64,000 bases of DNA, from assembly GCA_026417555.1 (NCBI GenBank), contig JAOADA010000002.1:172244-236243 (forward strand), given 5' to 3'. The notes under the pieces were generated by a model. It made no database searches. It was not told the DNA's origin and worked only from the letters and a program-made list of their open reading frames with translations. Each line of letters starts with the position of its first letter. Position 1 is the stretch's first letter. Position numbers and translations under genes: made by a program. Shown piece by piece: positions 3,000-11,254 of the stretch. The stretch is from Brevinematales bacterium. Its GTDB lineage: Bacteria > Spirochaetota > Brevinematia > Brevinematales > Thermospiraceae.

Positions 3000-5474
3000 T
3001 CATTCCTTTTTTAGGACAAGAACCTCGTATTTTTTCACCAGCACACTGGTGGTTTGTCCGGGAAGGCTTGTGGCACCGTTTCGGCTTGCAATGATGGTCC
3101 ACGAACCAGCTGGAAGGGCCACGGTGAAGTCCTCTCCTGCATTGTATACCACAAAGAGGTCTTTCTGTCCCAAGGGAGAGCCTATGATGAGGTTGGTTGT
3201 CACCTTCCAGTCGTTGGTAAGTCCTGCCTTGACATAGGCATCAACATCATCCCAGGTGGTATATCGGAAATGAGGATACGTTCTTCGGAGCCATATCATA
3301 TTGGTGTAGTAGGAGAAAACCGAGATATTGGCAGCTTTGAGATTCCAGCGTATTTTGTTCACCTCATCACCAGCGTTGTAGGAGTTCTTGGCCTTGTCCC
3401 AGTCAGAGGAACTGCTCTCATTCACCACCTTGGAGCGAAGGAATTCATCACCCGCATGGAGGAATGGTATCCCCTGAGAGGTGAGGATAATGCCAATACC
3501 AAACTTGTTGATATTGGTGCCTTGGTCTCCATTCGTAGCTCCTGTATAGCGGATCTTGTCCCACCAGCAAAGGTTATCATGGGCAGAGATATAATTGATA
3601 GACTGCTCGGGGTCGTAGGCAAACATCGAGTCCCAATTATCTGCAAGAGCATATATTCCTTTGGCGTACATGATAGATCCTCTCACCCCGGCGGGAATAC
3701 CCCCTGTCCAATCGGGCTTTGTTCCAAAAGCGTAGGCCATACCCTTGCCATCATTATCCCCTTTGAGTCTCTCTCTGTACTTGGGGTTAAATGCTCCTAC
3801 ATGGGCGGAGGCAAGGAGGGGCATCTTGCCAAGGCGAACCTTGCTGTTTTCAGCAGGGTCAGAGGCATATCCATTCCACGGTTCTCCGTAGAGGAGAAGC
3901 TTCCTGTCAGGATATTTGCTGGTAAGGTACTCTCCCCATTTTCTTACTTCATCATATGGGAAGACACCAATCAAGTCAAATCGGAACCCATCCACATTCA
4001 TATTGCTGACCCAATACTCCAGTGAATCTCGAATCATTCGGCTTACCATGGGTTGGCTGGCATCAATGGAGTTTCCACACCCAGAGAGGTCTTGGAGGGT
4101 GTAGTACAAGGGAGTGATAGACTCAAAAACACTCTTGTTATAGGTATGGTTGTATACCACATCCATGACTACTCGAATGCCATGTTTGTGAAATTCATTG
4201 ATCATGGTTTTGAACTCTTTTATGCGATTGGTGGGATCACTTGGCCATTGGGAGTACTGCTCTTCAGGTATATTGTAGTTCCATGGATCGTATCCCCAGT
4301 TATACTGGGCGGTATAAAAATCATACACTGGCAACAGCTGGACATGGGTGATGCCCATTTCTTTGAGATGATCAAGTCCTGTTTTGTAACCGCTGTAGGT
4401 TGTGCCTGTCTCCACCATACCAAGAAACTTGCCACGTTTTTCATTTGGACCATTCCAGGTGCTATCTATCGTGAAATCTCGGACATGGACCTCGTAGATG
4501 ATAGCGTCCTCACGATTGAGAAGAGAAGGACGAGGGGCCCAACCACCATCGGGATCGGTGAGGTTAGTATAGGGATCAATGACAAGATTTTGACCACTTC
4601 CATTGACCATCTTGCCATAAGGATCCCGAACCACGAATCCATTGATCACAAAATTGTAGGGTTTTAACCAGTGGTCTCCGGGAACGTACACATAAAAAAT
4701 TGTAGAAGGATCAGCCTCTGGATAACGGGGAAGATTGGTTTTTGTCATATCGTAATCAACACCATTGAGACGAAGTTTGACAGTTTTATTACCGGGTACC
4801 CAGATCGCAAAAGTACTTCCTTGGGGGGTATACACCACCCCAAGCTCTGTACGGTATTCTATTGTGCTTTTGCTCAAGGTATAGGTGTTGGAGTTGGTGA
4901 TGGTGGAATTGTATCCCCTCACCACAAGGGTGCATGTCTCTCCCACATTTATCCCCTCCCCTACCTCAATGGTTGTACCATCACTGTAGGTTTGGAAATC
5001 GGAGCCATTGGTAGAGTAGGCCCCACTCGCAGAGATACCACTGACCCGGAGAGTGACGGTAACCTTGTTGGTGAAGGTATACGTCTCACATTCTATCCAG
5101 GCGTAGGGCTCTTCAGGGTTATAATCATACCAAAGTCCATTTGTCCAGTACCATCCTGTCCGGTTTCGGTAGAGGTCAGGGGTTTTGGTGGTGGTGTCCC
5201 CTGTCTTGTCCTTAAAAAGGAGCCAGCTTTCACTTCTTCCCGATATGGTGTATCGGTACCATCCGTTGCCCGTATCCTCCATAGCCGGTGAGCTTGTCCA
5301 GGCCGGACCGGCAGGCCAGTAGTAGATATAGGCCCCTGCCCAACTGTCTGGTTTTTTGAAGTAGACGGTGAGGGAACGCGAAGGCGACTCTCCTGAACTC
5401 TGATTTTCTCCTCCTTGAGAGACACTGCATCCTATGAGGCTTACGATGAGTATTCCTCTCCAGAGTCGTTGCAT
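3000..5474 (-). CDS. pulA: Type I pullulanase, lipoprotein (GH13)
   Basis: Cleaves alpha-1,6 branches of pullulan, amylopectin or glycogen, probably at the cell surface. The 824-residue protein starts at ATG 5474 behind AAAGGAGG; an in-frame ATG at 5549 lacks a good ribosome site. A lipoprotein signal ends in LIGC (Cys16). A starch-binding-like module spans roughly residues 34-118, then a chitobiase-like beta domain at 130-200, a CBM48-like region from about 210, and the GH13 barrel. Seen: the type I signature YNWGYDP (391-397), DVVYNHT, nucleophile Asp500 in GFRFDL, acid Glu531 in YGEPW, and Asp633 in SAHDN. It is monocistronic with its own strong promoter and a long leader. With the CBM21 lipoprotein near 41 kb it suggests use of extracellular starch or glycogen. 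Confidence 0.95.
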   Translation of the reverse strand: MQRLWRGILIVSLIGCSVSQGGENQSSGESPSRSLTVYFKKPDSWAGAYIYYWPAGPAWTSSPAMEDTGNGWYRYTISGRSESWLLFKDKTGDTTTKTPDLYRNRTGWYWTNGLWYDYNPEEPYAWIECETYTFTNKVTVTLRVSGISASGAYSTNGSDFQTYSDGTTIEVGEGINVGETCTLVVRGYNSTITNSNTYTLSKSTIEYRTELGVVYTPQGSTFAIWVPGNKTVKLRLNGVDYDMTKTNLPRYPEADPSTIFYVYVPGDHWLKPYNFVINGFVVRDPYGKMVNGSGQNLVIDPYTNLTDPDGGWAPRPSLLNREDAIIYEVHVRDFTIDSTWNGPNEKRGKFLGMVETGTTYSGYKTGLDHLKEMGITHVQLLPVYDFYTAQYNWGYDPWNYNIPEEQYSQWPSDPTNRIKEFKTMINEFHKHGIRVVMDVVYNHTYNKSVFESITPLYYTLQDLSGCGNSIDASQPMVSRMIRDSLEYWVSNMNVDGFRFDLIGVFPYDEVRKWGEYLTSKYPDRKLLLYGEPWNGYASDPAENSKVRLGKMPLLASAHVGAFNPKYRERLKGDNDGKGMAYAFGTKPDWTGGIPAGVRGSIMYAKGIYALADNWDSMFAYDPEQSINYISAHDNLCWWDKIRYTGATNGDQGTNINKFGIGIILTSQGIPFLHAGDEFLRSKVVNESSSSDWDKAKNSYNAGDEVNKIRWNLKAANISVFSYYTNMIWLRRTYPHFRYTTWDDVDAYVKAGLTNDWKVTTNLIIGSPLGQKDLFVVYNAGEDFTVALPAGSWTIIASRNGATSLPGQTTSVLVKKYEVLVLKKE

Positions 5475-5667
5475 TGTTTTCCTCCTTTTTGGTTCTGTGA
5501 AAACTTCCTGTGAGAGATTAGCGTGAATCCTCTCTTTCAGATCTTTCATGAGGTTATAACTTTTTTGGGAAGCACGCTGGTGCGTTTGCCTTTTGTTGTG
5601 AAGGATTTTCAGTCCCTAGTTTCCTCTGATAAAAAGATAGAGAGAGGGTTCATTTTCTTTTCCTAGT

Positions 5668-5695
5668 ATTATACCATAAACGTATCATTTGTCAA
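5668..5695 (-). promoter_or_regulatory. Strong promoter of pulA with a long leader
   Basis: TTGACA (5690-5695), 16-nt spacer, TATAAT (5668-5673) on the minus strand. Transcription would start near 5661, giving a leader of about 185 nt before ATG 5474. No known riboswitch was recognised in it. The remaining 150 bases to the next gene (5696-5845) show no further gene or terminator. Confidence 0.8.
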
Positions 5696-5845: not shown

Positions 5846-6916
5846 TCAGAAACATTCTGCACAACGGTCTTTGGGAAGGGAAAGGTTTTCCCAGAGAAAC
5901 TGTTTTTCCATACACAAGTATATCGGTGCCCCAGGGAAAATCTTTTCAATAGTGGCCAGCATGGAATGATAAAACTGACGCCTCAAGGGACGAAAGTAGC
6001 GAAACTTGTGGTCGTCTTCTGAGGGGAACATCTCCCCTGCGAGTAAAAGGGATCGAGGAAATCGTTTTTCAATAATAGGGGCGAGACTCAGTGTGTGGCG
6101 GTATCCCCCTAAACTTATCCATCGTATGAGGCGATGATCAAGTGTTGAAAAAAGCATTTGAGCAAGCCGTTGGTACTCTGAAAGAAGATCAGGCAGCATA
6201 ATCAGAGGATCAAAATGAAGAGCAAGGGGAATACCGTGTTTTTGCAGGGTTTGCATGGCCAAAAGACGTTTTTCGAGGGGGGCTGTATTTCCTTCTTCTT
6301 TCTCCGTAAAGGAGGGAAGATTGACCGAAAATCCCACCACAACATCTACTTCTGGATAGTGCTTGTGGGCTTCGAGGAGGGTTTCTATTTCTGATGATTT
6401 GGTTTTGAACTCAATAGTGATGTTTTTGTGCCAGTGATGATCATGAATCATAGCAAGAAAGAAAAGACTCTCCTCTAAAATCTTGTCAAGGGCAAGAGAA
6501 TCTGCAAGTTCTCCTGTTCCCACTCGAAGATGGGAATGGGTGTGAAGGTGGCTTGCTATTTCCGGGATCAGGTCTTCTCTGTTAAGAAAGGCAGTGATAA
6601 AGGGGTTATTTTCAATGTAATTTTGGAGGATACAGTAGGTGCAATCAAAAGGGCATCCTGTTACCGTGTTCACTGTATAATAATTGCAACATACTACCCC
6701 TGGCGAGCCTGGGCATTTTTTGAGAAAACGCCCCTTTTGTCGGCTAAGAAAAAGAGTAGATTTTCCCCAGCGGAACTTTTCCTCCAAGGGAAGACTTTTG
6801 ACATAGGCGATAAGCTCGTCTTTGGTGGCCTTGTGTGGAAAAAGCCCTAATCGGGAGGCTATGTTTTCTATTTGGGGGCTTTGTATATCAGGATCATAAA
6901 ACAAGCGTTCAATCAT
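5846..6916 (-). CDS. Radical SAM protein of the spore photoproduct lyase-like family
   Basis: A 356-residue radical SAM enzyme. The cluster motif CPFDCTYC (CxxxCxxC) is present, followed by segments typical of the SPL/COG1533 family: RVGTGELADSLAL, EFKTKS and the histidine-rich ISLGGYRH. Bacillus SplB needs an extra hydrogen-donor Cys (Cys141) in the segment after the cluster. Here no Cys occurs between the cluster motif and IYLCMEK near the C-terminus, so classical thymine-dimer lyase chemistry is doubtful. The start ATG 6916 overlaps the upstream stop by 8 nt, so translation is coupled; longer in-frame starts would sit inside the preceding gene. It is the last gene of the five-gene operon. 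Confidence 0.75.
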   Translation of the reverse strand: MIERLFYDPDIQSPQIENIASRLGLFPHKATKDELIAYVKSLPLEEKFRWGKSTLFLSRQKGRFLKKCPGSPGVVCCNYYTVNTVTGCPFDCTYCILQNYIENNPFITAFLNREDLIPEIASHLHTHSHLRVGTGELADSLALDKILEESLFFLAMIHDHHWHKNITIEFKTKSSEIETLLEAHKHYPEVDVVVGFSVNLPSFTEKEEGNTAPLEKRLLAMQTLQKHGIPLALHFDPLIMLPDLLSEYQRLAQMLFSTLDHRLIRWISLGGYRHTLSLAPIIEKRFPRSLLLAGEMFPSEDDHKFRYFRPLRRQFYHSMLATIEKIFPGAPIYLCMEKQFLWENLSLPKDRCAECF

Positions 6917-7802
6917 AGTTCTCTCCCAACAAGATGGAGAGGGCATCTTTAATTTCTTGGGAGATACGAAGGCATTTCTTGCTGAGAGAGGCAAGATCTT
7001 TGGGGCTTTGAAGCAACACGTGGAGAGTGAGGGCATCCCCTTCAAGAAAAGGCGGCCAGGTTATTTTCCAACCGGTTTTTTGTTTGATGCAGGTAGCGAG
7101 GGCCTGAAGCTTTCCTTCACTTGCCACAAGGAGTGGATAGCGCAGGTTTTTGAGTCTTTGGAGGAGAATCTCGAGACGTTTGGAGGGAGGCTCGTGGAGA
7201 GATTGTATCTCCTCCCATCTCACTTCTTCAAGAATGTTTTCGTGTGACCAGTTTCTGCCGTTTTCAACACTCAAGAAAAGTTGTCGGATCAGCCTGAGTT
7301 GATTGCCGTGAGGGCGAAGAACATCAAGAGCATGGGGAAGCCAGAGAAGCCAAGGGAGATCGTTTCTCCAGTCCCAGAGAAGACGGAGGGAGATGCCATA
7401 CAGAGCAGCTTTTGTGATCAGAGGGTGATGGGATTGAAGCCATAACCAAAAGTTTGGTTCTTTCGCAAGGGGTATCCAAGGAGAAAAAAATGAGAAAAGA
7501 AGGGACTCTTCTACTCCCATCTTGTGAGCACAGAGGAAAAGTCCTGCCCATTCGATCTCTTCTTTGCCCCCCTGGAAAAGAAGGGCTTCTTGCAAACAGA
7601 GAAGAAGTTCGTGAGGGGTTTGGGGAACAAAAAGAAGGAGATTTTTTTGTTCACAAGATGGTTCCCCCTCGTAGGGATAGATCTCTCCCTCCCACAGAAT
7701 GGCTCGAATCCATTGGGGAGAGGAGATTCTTTGCATTGTCCAACGGGTGAGCAAGAGCCAATTTTCTGGTTTGAGAGCGTGGGCTTCTGTACAGACAATC
7801 AT
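6909..7802 (-). CDS. Unknown 297-residue protein in the lipid-kinase operon
   Basis: Not recognised. It is a soluble-looking, Trp- and Leu-rich, largely helical protein without signal peptide or membrane segment. The last about 85 residues form a separate module after a Lys/Leu-rich helix. The start ATG 7802 follows GGAG and overlaps the lipid-kinase stop (ATGA). Its own stop overlaps the radical SAM start. This tight coupling argues that it is real and works with its neighbours. Confidence 0.7.
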   Translation of the reverse strand: MIVCTEAHALKPENWLLLTRWTMQRISSPQWIRAILWEGEIYPYEGEPSCEQKNLLLFVPQTPHELLLCLQEALLFQGGKEEIEWAGLFLCAHKMGVEESLLFSFFSPWIPLAKEPNFWLWLQSHHPLITKAALYGISLRLLWDWRNDLPWLLWLPHALDVLRPHGNQLRLIRQLFLSVENGRNWSHENILEEVRWEEIQSLHEPPSKRLEILLQRLKNLRYPLLVASEGKLQALATCIKQKTGWKITWPPFLEGDALTLHVLLQSPKDLASLSKKCLRISQEIKDALSILLGENYD

Positions 7803-8755
7803 GAGAAACTCCTGGTTTCTGGGAAGAGAGATTTGTATTTGTGGAGGACATTTTTTGGCAAGATCATACGTATAGCCTGGGGATGGATAGTGACTTCGAG
7901 TGGAAGGGTCTCAAAGGGTTCCCCATCCACTTGTGAAAATACCCTTTCTTCTGAGTTGAGCACAAGAGAACGACAACGAATGAGATCTTTCCTCTGGAAA
8001 AGCGTTCCACCCCCGTAGGGTTGCCATAAGGTAGTTACTACTCTCCAGACAAGACGGAGGAGATTCCAGGTTCCCACTTCTCGGTAAAGAAACACATCCA
8101 GATACCCATCAAGAGGACTCGCTTGGGGGGTAATCTTGAAGTATCGTCCATATCGCTGGATGTTGGAGATCAAGACAAAAGAAGCACAATGCCTCTCATT
8201 GTCAACATCTACCGTAATGAGAGGAAAACGGTATTTTCCAAGGGCTTGAAATCCTCCCACCACATACGCAAGCTTGCCAAAAAGTCTTCGGAGTCCCCTT
8301 TCCCGGTTTTTTCCTTCCATGACAGAAAGCGTACGGATGGCATAGGCATCAAAACCTGCGCTGAGCATCAGGAGGAAAAAACGGTTATTGGCTTTTCCTA
8401 CATCAAGAGAAAGCGTATGTCCTTCTGCCAGCATCCTGGCAATGGATTTCCAGGAGGTGGGAAGACGCATCTCACGGGCAAAAACATTGCCTGTTCCCAT
8501 GGGGTAGAGGGCAAGGATAGCCTGGCTTCCTATGATGCCATTGAGGACTTCGTGGAGTGTCCCATCTCCCCCTGCCCCCACGATGCATTCCCACCCTTCC
8601 ATCGCCGCCTGGTGGGCAAGTTCTTTCGCGTGTCCGGGGTAACGGGTATAACTCACTCCAACGGTATGCCCAAGAGCGTGAAGAAAAGCAAGACATCGTC
8701 GCAAAGATCTTTCATGACGACGGTGAAGTGCATTGGCCACAAAGAAGTATCGCAT
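7799..8755 (-). CDS. Diacylglycerol kinase / YegS-like lipid kinase
   Basis: A 318-residue member of the DAGK catalytic superfamily, which phosphorylates diacylglycerol or a similar lipid with ATP. The nucleotide-binding GAGGDGTLHEV sits at about residues 61-71 and MGTGNVFA follows. The C-terminal beta domain has IDVGKA-like LDVGKANN and a late QVDGEPFE segment, the usual VDGE motif. It begins three bases after the HypF-like stop behind GGGGAGG. A second paralogue lies two genes upstream in the same operon. Confidence 0.85.
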   Translation of the reverse strand: MRYFFVANALHRRHERSLRRCLAFLHALGHTVGVSYTRYPGHAKELAHQAAMEGWECIVGAGGDGTLHEVLNGIIGSQAILALYPMGTGNVFAREMRLPTSWKSIARMLAEGHTLSLDVGKANNRFFLLMLSAGFDAYAIRTLSVMEGKNRERGLRRLFGKLAYVVGGFQALGKYRFPLITVDVDNERHCASFVLISNIQRYGRYFKITPQASPLDGYLDVFLYREVGTWNLLRLVWRVVTTLWQPYGGGTLFQRKDLIRCRSLVLNSEERVFSQVDGEPFETLPLEVTIHPQAIRMILPKNVLHKYKSLFPETRSFS

Positions 8756-8758
8756 CTG

Positions 8759-10297
8759 TTATTCCTCCCCGATACTCTTTGCCTCTTTTTTTGCCAGAAT
8801 ATGGAGAAGAGCCCCTAAAGCGACACTACTATCCCCTGTGGGAATAGTTTTGTGAATTAACGTGGTGAGCCCGTGTTTCTGGAGATGGTATTCCATGAGC
8901 TGGAGAAGGTGGGGGTGAATGAAAAGGTTGCCTGAAAGAGCCACCCGTTTTTCTTGATACTGATCAGCATAGGTTTTGACAAGTTTTGCGGTATTGCCAA
9001 AAAGAGAATGGATGGCCTGGTGGAGAATGGAGAGAGAATTCTTTCCTGAGGAAATGTCTGCGAGCACCTGCTTAAAAAGATCATACGTGTCCAGGTAGGT
9101 ATGAGTGTCCTCTTGAATGAGCCCCACATCATACAGAGGCTCCTCGTGAGAGAGGAAAAGCTCATCCAGACGCTTGTTGACCATGTCATACTCTTCTACC
9201 AGAGAACGATAATCCAAAAGCTCAAACAGAGCGATGAGAATATGTGTCATGCTTGAAGAGGAGATCACATTAATGATACGTTTATTGATAGCATTGATCA
9301 CATAACGAATCTCTTCTTTTTGACGCAATTGTTCCATGAAAGGAATATCCAGTTCATCAAGGTCTTTGGTAATCTCTCGGAGGACGGCAAGTGTGATACG
9401 CCATGGTTCAAGATAGGTTGAGGCATTTCCCGGTACAGGAATAGGCCGCCACGAAGCAAGGATGTTCACCTGTGACATGGTACCGTACACAATATCGCTT
9501 CCCTCGATGGTTCCGTGACTGGTGTGATCTTCCTCATCAAAGATGATACCCAAAAGAGGGGTACTTGAAAAGTGGTTGTCAAAAAGAACATTGGCAAAAT
9601 GGGCTTCGGTGTGGGTATAAGCACTTTTTTGTCCGTATTTTGAGAGATACGTATGGAGAAGAGATTCATGATAATACTCATGAAAGATAACCCCTTTGGT
9701 GATAAAGGCTTTTTTTTGATTTTCCATCCATTGGTGAGAGGCTTCAAGTTGTTGCCAATCGAGGAGTCGCCCAAAAACAGGGGAAAGATGGATGGCATCC
9801 CCTTCCAATACCGCCACACTGAGATTACTCTCACTTCCAAAGGCAATAAAGTCATAATTGTATTCTCCCTCAAGCTCAACAATTGTACCCTGAAAAGGCG
9901 TATAGGAGACGGGGTACCATCGATCCTGATAGAGGGTATAGTAACACGAGAGGTGATCATTCTCAAGTACTTCATCATATCCCTTTTTCGTACTTGGTGT
10001 CAGAAAAAGGAAAGAGCTATTTTGAGGAAGCTCCGGATAGTTAGCCAAAAGCTTTTGTGCTTTTTCTCTGTTGCTCCCGGAGAGAAGGATAACAGGAAGC
10101 AATTCTCCCTTTTTTCCCCAGGGCTCAGTTTTGGGGAGGGGAAGAAGAAGGCAAGGGGGAGGATCCTTTTTCTCAAAAGCAAAATATGAGAAAAGTTTTT
10201 CCTTGTCCAAAAAGAAAAGGCAAAAGTCTTTTGAAGAAGGGCTTGTTTCTACTTTGAAATTCCTTCCGGACGGGAATCGTAAGACAGGGGAAATCAT
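8759..10297 (-). CDS. HypF C-terminal (Kae1-like) carbamoyltransferase homologue
   Basis: A 512-residue protein whose residues from about 148 follow the C-terminal domain of HypF, the carbamoyltransferase that transfers carbamoyl from carbamoyl-AMP to HypE. Matching blocks: IAFGSESNLS with LSPVFGRL; metal-site HTEAH (His229, His233); GIIFDEEDHTSHGTIEGSD; VPGNAS with EPWR; and near the end VALSGNLF with GDSSVALGALLH. The acylphosphatase and zinc-finger parts of HypF are missing, and the N-terminal 145 residues are not recognisable as YrdC. No hydrogenase or hyp gene is nearby, so the acceptor is probably not HypE. ATG 10297 lies behind GGAGG and overlaps the upstream stop (ATGA). Confidence 0.75.
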   Translation of the reverse strand: MISPVLRFPSGRNFKVETSPSSKDFCLFFLDKEKLFSYFAFEKKDPPPCLLLPLPKTEPWGKKGELLPVILLSGSNREKAQKLLANYPELPQNSSFLFLTPSTKKGYDEVLENDHLSCYYTLYQDRWYPVSYTPFQGTIVELEGEYNYDFIAFGSESNLSVAVLEGDAIHLSPVFGRLLDWQQLEASHQWMENQKKAFITKGVIFHEYYHESLLHTYLSKYGQKSAYTHTEAHFANVLFDNHFSSTPLLGIIFDEEDHTSHGTIEGSDIVYGTMSQVNILASWRPIPVPGNASTYLEPWRITLAVLREITKDLDELDIPFMEQLRQKEEIRYVINAINKRIINVISSSSMTHILIALFELLDYRSLVEEYDMVNKRLDELFLSHEEPLYDVGLIQEDTHTYLDTYDLFKQVLADISSGKNSLSILHQAIHSLFGNTAKLVKTYADQYQEKRVALSGNLFIHPHLLQLMEYHLQKHGLTTLIHKTIPTGDSSVALGALLHILAKKEAKSIGEE

Positions 10298-11199
10298 AGA
10301 CTACCTCCTATGAGTGTGGCGCGCTCTTGATTGATGTACATGAGAAGCGAGGAAGGTTGAAGAGACACATGCCAAGTATTGAGATAAAAAATCTCTCCAT
10401 CAATATGGGTAACACATGGCTGGGAAGAGGACAAGGTGAGAGTGGAAAATCGTGTTTCATGAACAAAGGGAAGGGTAGTATGTCTGCCTTTGAGAGTGAG
10501 AAAAAGGTTTTTGATCCTTTTTGGAATGCCGACATTTTCTATCCAGCAAAGGTCAAGGAGACCATCAGTGATGATGGCGGATGGGGTGAGAGCAATGCCT
10601 CCTCCTGAGCTTTTGCCATTCCCTATAGAAAGGAGAAAGATTTTTTGAGGTGTTTTGTCAAGAATAATGTCATATCCGTGGTAAAAGAGGAGGTTTTTAA
10701 AAATGGGAGGGTAGTATCTCCATTTTCGAGGGACCCATTTCCATACTCGAAACTCTGATGCGACCAGGGCATCAAAACCAATTCCCATCGTATTAAAAAA
10801 ATATCGTTCATTACATTGTCCTACGTCGATAGCCACGCTCTCGTCTCGGAAGAAGTTTTCCCACTCTTTGGGATGAAACGTATGAGAAAAACCCAAACCG
10901 ATAGCCAGATCATTCCCCGTTCCAGAAGGTACCAGAGAAACACGGATATTTTTCCTTCCAACAAGGGGTTGGCACATCTCATTGAATGTTCCATCCCCTC
11001 CTATACAGACAAATTCTCGGTGTCCCTGGGTGTACGCTCTTTCGGCTAACACGGTAGCATGATTTTTTCCCTCCGTGGTTTGGAGAGTAATTTCATGGGG
11101 CTGGTATTTCTGTGATAGAAACTCAAGAAAACGAGTGAGAACACGTTGTGTTTTTCCCTCTCCAGCCACTGGGTTATAGATGACGCAGAGACGAGGCAC
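10294..11199 (-). CDS. Diacylglycerol kinase-like lipid kinase, first gene of operon
   Basis: A 301-residue DAGK-family lipid kinase. VIYNPVAGEGK opens the protein, IGGDGTFNEM is the nucleotide loop, PSGTGNDLA follows, then VAIDVG, and a late THIDGEIF matches the family's DGE motif. The start is taken as GTG 11199: it lies 5 nt behind AAGGAGG and about 20 nt after the predicted transcription start. The longer frame back to 11358 would begin upstream of the promoter. It resembles DagK/YegS more closely than the paralogue at 7799-8755 does. Confidence 0.87.
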   Translation of the reverse strand: MPRLCVIYNPVAGEGKTQRVLTRFLEFLSQKYQPHEITLQTTEGKNHATVLAERAYTQGHREFVCIGGDGTFNEMCQPLVGRKNIRVSLVPSGTGNDLAIGLGFSHTFHPKEWENFFRDESVAIDVGQCNERYFFNTMGIGFDALVASEFRVWKWVPRKWRYYPPIFKNLLFYHGYDIILDKTPQKIFLLSIGNGKSSGGGIALTPSAIITDGLLDLCWIENVGIPKRIKNLFLTLKGRHTTLPFVHETRFSTLTLSSSQPCVTHIDGEIFYLNTWHVSLQPSSLLMYINQERATLIGGSL

Positions 11200-11226: not shown

Positions 11227-11254
11227 ATTGTAAAGCATTTTTTGAAAATCGCAA
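11227..11254 (-). promoter_or_regulatory. Promoter of the lipid-kinase/carbamoyltransferase operon
   Basis: TTGCGA (11249-11254), 16-nt spacer, TACAAT (11227-11232) on the minus strand. It shares the 142-bp divergent region with the promoter of the gene at 11342. Confidence 0.65.

Follow-up and report, generated by a model that had tools for sequence, protein, structure and literature searches.

In HypF and TobZ, carbamoyl-AMP is made by a fused YrdC domain (PMC9654439), and in GdmN the iron is held by H133, H137, D156 and D333, the loop past D156 lining the acceptor pocket (PMC9633730). TsaB provides a precedent for an ASKHA-fold protein that acts as a non-catalytic partner (PMC9654439). The locus compared here with these systems lies in a 64,000-nucleotide stretch of DNA from a Brevinematales bacterium (contig JAOADA010000002.1), hereafter the window, and combines a HypF-derived protein, which we call HypFC, with lipid kinases. 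An ORF reading of the window shows five genes tightly packed on the minus strand, running from 11199 to 5846, in the order DAGK1, HypFC, DAGK2, a protein with no Pfam match and an SPL-like radical SAM protein; the junctions, in the order of transcription, are a 4-nt overlap, a 3-nt gap, a 4-nt overlap and an 8-nt overlap, and a purine-rich Shine–Dalgarno sequence stands ahead of every start. This agrees with an earlier, sequence-only reading of the same DNA, which described the five genes as overlapping or at most 3 nt apart. The same reading placed them behind one promoter, and a candidate sigma-70-like site, TTGCGA-16-TACAAT, does exist at 11227–11254 on the minus strand, but its match to the consensus is weak (9/12), and 11 promoter-like sites were found where shuffling predicted 6.6.

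Downstream of the five genes lies an alpha-amylase-like gene (3000–5549), which has its own perfect (12/12) sigma-70 promoter, TTGACA-16-TATAAT with a TG element, at 5668–5695 on the minus strand; the upstream neighbour is a TIGR03960/DUF2344 radical SAM gene in divergent orientation. The five-gene order is also complete in one congener (G001), with proteins 45–71% identical, and the genes are under purifying selection, which is strong for HypFC (dN/dS 0.05–0.12); we therefore regard the run as a real locus rather than a chance series of ORFs, and HypFC as a functional protein.

HypFC (8759–10297, minus strand) is a stand-alone, HypF Kae1-like (ASKHA) protein of 512 residues, with a match to Pfam HypF_C_2 at 1.2e-24. 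Its relationship to HypF is apparent at several levels: the protein matches the HypF of PDB entry 3vth with an E-value of 1.4e-12, hhalign aligns it with HypF at 5e-42 across 358 columns and, when its AF2 model was searched with Foldseek, the best structural match was HypF, with a TM-score of 0.63. The match to Pfam HypF_C (0.006) is below the cut-off, and the score against the NCBIfam hypF equivalog, 87.7 bits, is under the cut-off of 466. No ACP, Zn-finger or YrdC domain was detected in it by Pfam, NCBIfam, hhalign or HMMER, which bears out the initial description of a HypF C-terminal domain standing without the other HypF domains. The fold and the ancestry are thus established: HypFC derives from the C-terminal, Kae1-like part of HypF, which it has re-tooled.

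We aligned seven HypFC proteins with 20 spirochaetal HypFs and compared the 47 positions of the Kae1-like domain (8804–9853, minus strand) that are invariant in HypF. All seven HypFC proteins retain twelve of these. The twelve include the metal ligands H229, H233 and D254, which are invariant in the family (7/7); the fourth ligand, D489, is variable, being Asp in families f1 and f3 and Asn in f2. Twenty-three of the 47 are gone from all seven, including the G-T-G of the loop past the metal-binding Asp, the second Gly of SGG, and GR..FD at 351–355. The DGTGYG loop of HypF reads D-E/S-E/I/A/S-D/S... in HypFC and its SGGxFxN motif reads S/A/G-G-N/H/E; SSSMxH, W283 and EPWR, by contrast, are newly fixed as invariant residues throughout the HypFC family. 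The pattern reads as a metal site that has been kept and a pocket that has been changed.

The bearing of these changes on catalysis has to be weighed against the earlier view that HypFC is still a carbamoyltransferase, acting on a lipid or on a small molecule attached to one. In the form considered here, the acceptor would be a lipid or else a head-group produced by the DAGKs, and carbamoyl-AMP would come from an unrecognised YrdC-like activity of the N-terminus or from another enzyme. The retention of H,H,D(,D), as in GdmN, and the pairing of HypFC with lipid kinases speak for it, whereas the loss of 23 invariant positions, including the post-Asp loop and the SGG, and the replacement of D489 by Asn in f2 speak against it. 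The only YrdC-domain protein in the window genome, moreover, is of the universal TsaC/Sua5 type and of TsaC/Sua5 size.

The N-terminal 145 or so residues (9863–10297, minus strand) are family-specific and contain no domain recognised by hhalign or HMMER; neither program matched them to the ACP, Zn or YrdC regions of HypF. A local YrdC profile gave a weak signal, with z about 3 against shuffles, whereas the anchored profile alignment did no better than shuffles. Structure prediction of this region, which had been proposed as a check, gave a divided answer: AF2 left the 145 residues unfolded in the window protein, but in the f2 HypFC it modelled residues 1–120 at pLDDT 50–75, and with this second model Foldseek aligned nearly the whole of HypFC to HypF, over about 580 columns, the extension resting on the low-confidence region. 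By eye, and in a MAFFT alignment, the N-terminus could be taken for a degenerate YrdC, but we did not adopt this identification, which is unsupported by hhalign, HMMER or the anchored profile alignment. The profile signal and the long Foldseek alignment are weak hints of a shrunken YrdC, to be set against those failures; with D489 replaced in f2 and no detectable YrdC to supply carbamoyl-AMP, the proposed lipid carbamoylation now looks weak, and we consider true carbamoyl transfer by HypFC possible but unlikely. An accessory or regulatory role is the one we favour.

A second alternative, that HypFC simply serves hydrogenase maturation as its HypF, draws on its homology and on the f2 genomes, whose [NiFe]-hydrogenase large subunit is sulfhydrogenase-like and has every Cys ligand (L132:7645-10837, which is G003:C36; L133, in G006; L095; L098). 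Against it, HypD was found in 0/13 Brevinematales genomes and no HypE above the cut-off in any of the 13, although the sibling family f5 has a clear HypE and a full HypF; from this absence we conclude that HypFC is no hydrogenase maturase. Of the four HypFC-containing genomes outside f2, the window genome (G000), G001 and G007 gave no NiFe-hydrogenase family match and G004 gave only a short one, and HypFC itself lacks the ACP, Zn and detectable YrdC parts of a maturase. The window genome is 98% complete, and in its congener G001, assembled as a single contig, the outcome for hydrogenase maturation is identical. The initial statement that hydrogenase genes are absent holds for NiFe hydrogenases in the window genome, a HypE-type acceptor is excluded within the limits of the assemblies, and the full hyp set that might have been sitting elsewhere in the genome was not found. 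Barring missing sequence, a role in hydrogenase maturation is refuted for the window genome, and we regard it as the least probable of the readings of HypFC.

In two f2 genomes (G003 and G006) the hydrogenase operon also encodes a 431-residue protein that joins a HypC domain with a HydE-like radical SAM domain and, in G003, a HycI protease gene lies between the large-subunit gene and this fusion. The hydrogenase-bearing f2 genomes yielded no HypD, no HypE over the cut-off and no full HypF, and they may use an unusual route for the maturation of their NiFe hydrogenase.

The Kae1-like fold, together with the presence of an encoded TsaC/Sua5, could also place HypFC in the synthesis of tRNA t6A. 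All 13 Brevinematales genomes, however, encode a dedicated TsaD, and 12 of the 13 have a second, TsaB-like match, genomes without HypFC being included in both counts; we therefore rejected HypFC as a replacement for TsaD, and think a part in t6A synthesis fed by TsaC/Sua5 very improbable.

The distribution of HypFC is narrow. A whole-genome search of relatives found homologues that include the N-terminal region in 8/13 Brevinematales genomes, the gene being split across two contigs in G011; among the 393 Spirochaetota genomes sampled, no full-length match was found outside the order, the matches there being full-length HypF or fragments covering the HypF C-terminal domain alone. When 84,980 species genomes were scanned with the HypFC family alignment, five loci were returned, all of them from Brevinematales: three are from genomes named Brevinematales bacterium and two from 'Spirochaetes bacterium' MAGs that match genomes of the order. 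Carriage on mobile elements was considered and rejected, there being no relative on viral contigs and only distant matches on plasmids, where the ones listed and annotated are full HypF genes. One genome placed in the window genus (G002, about 100% complete) lacks HypFC, the protein encoded at 6909–7802, the SPL-like gene and any DAGK1-like kinase.

DAGK1 (10294–11199, minus strand; 301 residues, with a GTG start and a strong Shine–Dalgarno sequence, AGGAGG) is a DgkB/YegS-type lipid kinase matching DAGK_cat at 5.7e-24 and YegS_C at 6.4e-17; it scores 126 bits against TIGR00147, above the cut-off of 118.65, and its GGDGT, GTGND and IDGE motifs are intact. DAGK2 (7799–8755, minus strand; DAGK_cat 4.2e-24) belongs to a different subfamily. 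Both window kinases have the DAGK_cat and YegS_C domains and the GGDGT...GTGN...DGE motifs, and these matches, with that of the SPL-like protein, confirm the assignment of two DAGK-type kinases and an SPL-like radical SAM enzyme. Outside the window, the HypFC-linked kinases of f2 retain GGDGT and IDGE but do not match the GTGND pattern, and the DAGK2 of G001 does not match the IDGE/VDGE pattern.

A DAGK1-type kinase lies directly upstream of HypFC, on the same strand, in six genomes (G000, G001, G003, G006, G009 and G011), namely both HypFC-containing f1 genomes and four of f2. The paired proteins of the two families are only about 30–37% identical, yet their order, orientation and overlapping or near-zero spacing have been kept. 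Among the 13 Brevinematales genomes, 7/8 of those with HypFC encode a strong YegS-type kinase, against 0/5 of those without it (Fisher p 0.005, a value that ignores relatedness). The neighbourhood search called for by the sequence-only reading therefore bore fruit in part, since adjacency extends to six genomes and two families, but two genomes that encode HypFC have no kinase next to it: in f3 (G004 and G007) HypFC is located elsewhere, and G004 is without any strong YegS-type kinase. The kinase is thus not obligatory for HypFC.

These exceptions give some substance to a further explanation, that the function of HypFC has nothing to do with the kinases and that their adjacency is lineage-specific hitchhiking in an operon. 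The window operon also holds an apparently unrelated pair of genes and the kinase tree places DAGK1 and the HypFC-linked kinases of f2 within a single large clade that also holds unlinked copies, where they do not make up a strict clade of their own; DAGK2 groups with f2 kinases unlinked to HypFC. Hitchhiking would have to account for the order, orientation and tight spacing maintained in two families at such low identity, and for the joint absence of HypFC and kinase from G002 and from f4, and we think it possible but on balance rather unlikely, though less so than carbamoyl transfer. In f2 (L027:2683-8219, L028, L029 and L030) the kinase–HypFC pair lies just 3' of a run of lipoprotein-like genes whose products share a YVFDL...I..EWNKLL start; the one lipoprotein-like gene that was scanned (L027:6807-8219) encodes a CotH-family kinase.

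Since the adjacency of DAGK1 and HypFC recurs in two families, it is this pair, and not the five-gene operon, that forms the conserved unit; of the five genes, these two are the only ones shared between the families. The fourth and fifth genes look like a module of their own. The first of them (6909–7802, minus strand) encodes a protein of 297 residues with no Pfam, NCBIfam or PHROG match, profiles of which nevertheless match proteins of eight other spirochaetes with E-values of 1e-3 to 6e-6; its C-terminal 85 or so residues show a weak but repeated likeness to the C-termini of ParB-like spirochaetal proteins, mostly of about 310–350 residues. Three relatives were scanned with Pfam and two matched ParB_N, one above the cut-off; ParB_N is absent from the window protein and its G001 homologue, the likeness to ParB being limited to the C-terminal region. 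The second gene (5846–6916, minus strand) encodes an SPL-like radical SAM protein of 356 residues from its ATG, with a CPFDCTYC motif and a match to Pfam SPL at 5.6e-18; against NCBIfam TIGR04070 it scores 73.1 bits, far under the cut-off of 400. Within Brevinematales the 6909–7802 gene is present in G000 and G001 only (2/13) and the SPL-like gene in the same two, with a distant match in G007, so we rejected the proposal that the five genes serve one pathway. In G159 (L125:3790-5759), a ParB-like homologue overlaps by 4 nt the SPL-like radical SAM gene that comes after it, so that the two are arranged as in the window; this suggests a conserved pair, overlapping by 4–8 nt, in two distant spirochaete lineages. 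Because that order recurs in G159, the operon looks like three parts put together: the kinase–HypFC unit, one further kinase and the ParB-like/SPL-like pair.

This altered fragment of HypF has probably acquired a new function, because it stands alone, is heavily altered, is usually found beside a lipid kinase and occurs in genomes without the hydrogenase-assembly machinery. Our tentative proposal, the likeliest of the readings although we give it a little less than an even chance, is that HypFC is a re-tooled, metal-binding partner of a DgkB-type lipid kinase. The HypF-derived Kae1-like domain would have left hydrogenase maturation to work jointly with the kinase encoded just upstream, its metal site being used without a dedicated supplier of carbamoyl-AMP; it might serve the kinase as a regulator or a scaffold, or might itself act on the lipid that the kinase phosphorylates or on the one it produces, and the ParB-like and SPL-like genes would form a second module, transcribed together with the pair in one genus. 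It seems to us improbable, less likely even than carbamoyl transfer as such, that HypFC and the kinase form a lipid-modifying pathway specific to Brevinematales, in which the HypF-derived metal site transfers a carbamoyl or other group to a phospholipid precursor; if true, that reaction would be without a known counterpart. What calls for explanation is a hydrogenase-maturation domain held under strong selection without HypD or HypE, in a set of genomes half of which have no NiFe hydrogenase to need it. If its coupling to the kinase is functional, this would give the Kae1-like fold, whose other known settings are t6A synthesis, HypF and O-carbamoylation, a new role, and would suggest that the lipid chemistry of a little-studied order of spirochaetes is unusual.

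Among described systems, HypF itself shares with HypFC some 350 collinear residues, the fold, and the metal site of HxxxH and a downstream Asp, but HypFC lacks the ACP, Zn and detectable YrdC domains and the Hyp partners, has changed half of the HypF-invariant residues and has an N-terminal region of 145 residues all its own. The TobZ/GdmN/NodU-type O-carbamoyltransferases also have a Kae1-like domain, theirs with an H,H,D,D metal site and able to act on small molecules (PMC9633730); they differ in carrying YrdC in the same chain, and HypFC has no Pfam match to their family. TsaD/Kae1 and TsaB have the ASKHA fold and are structural matches to HypFC, but there is no match at the level of sequence, and both are encoded separately. 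The SPL-like protein has the Pfam domain and the CxxxCxxC cluster motif of spore photoproduct lyase but falls far below the NCBIfam equivalog cut-offs, and is a relative of that enzyme rather than the enzyme itself. Finally, DAGK1 and DAGK2 have the fold and catalytic motifs of the DgkB/YegS/BmrU lipid kinases, from which the present system differs in the pairing of such a kinase with a protein resembling the C-terminus of HypF.
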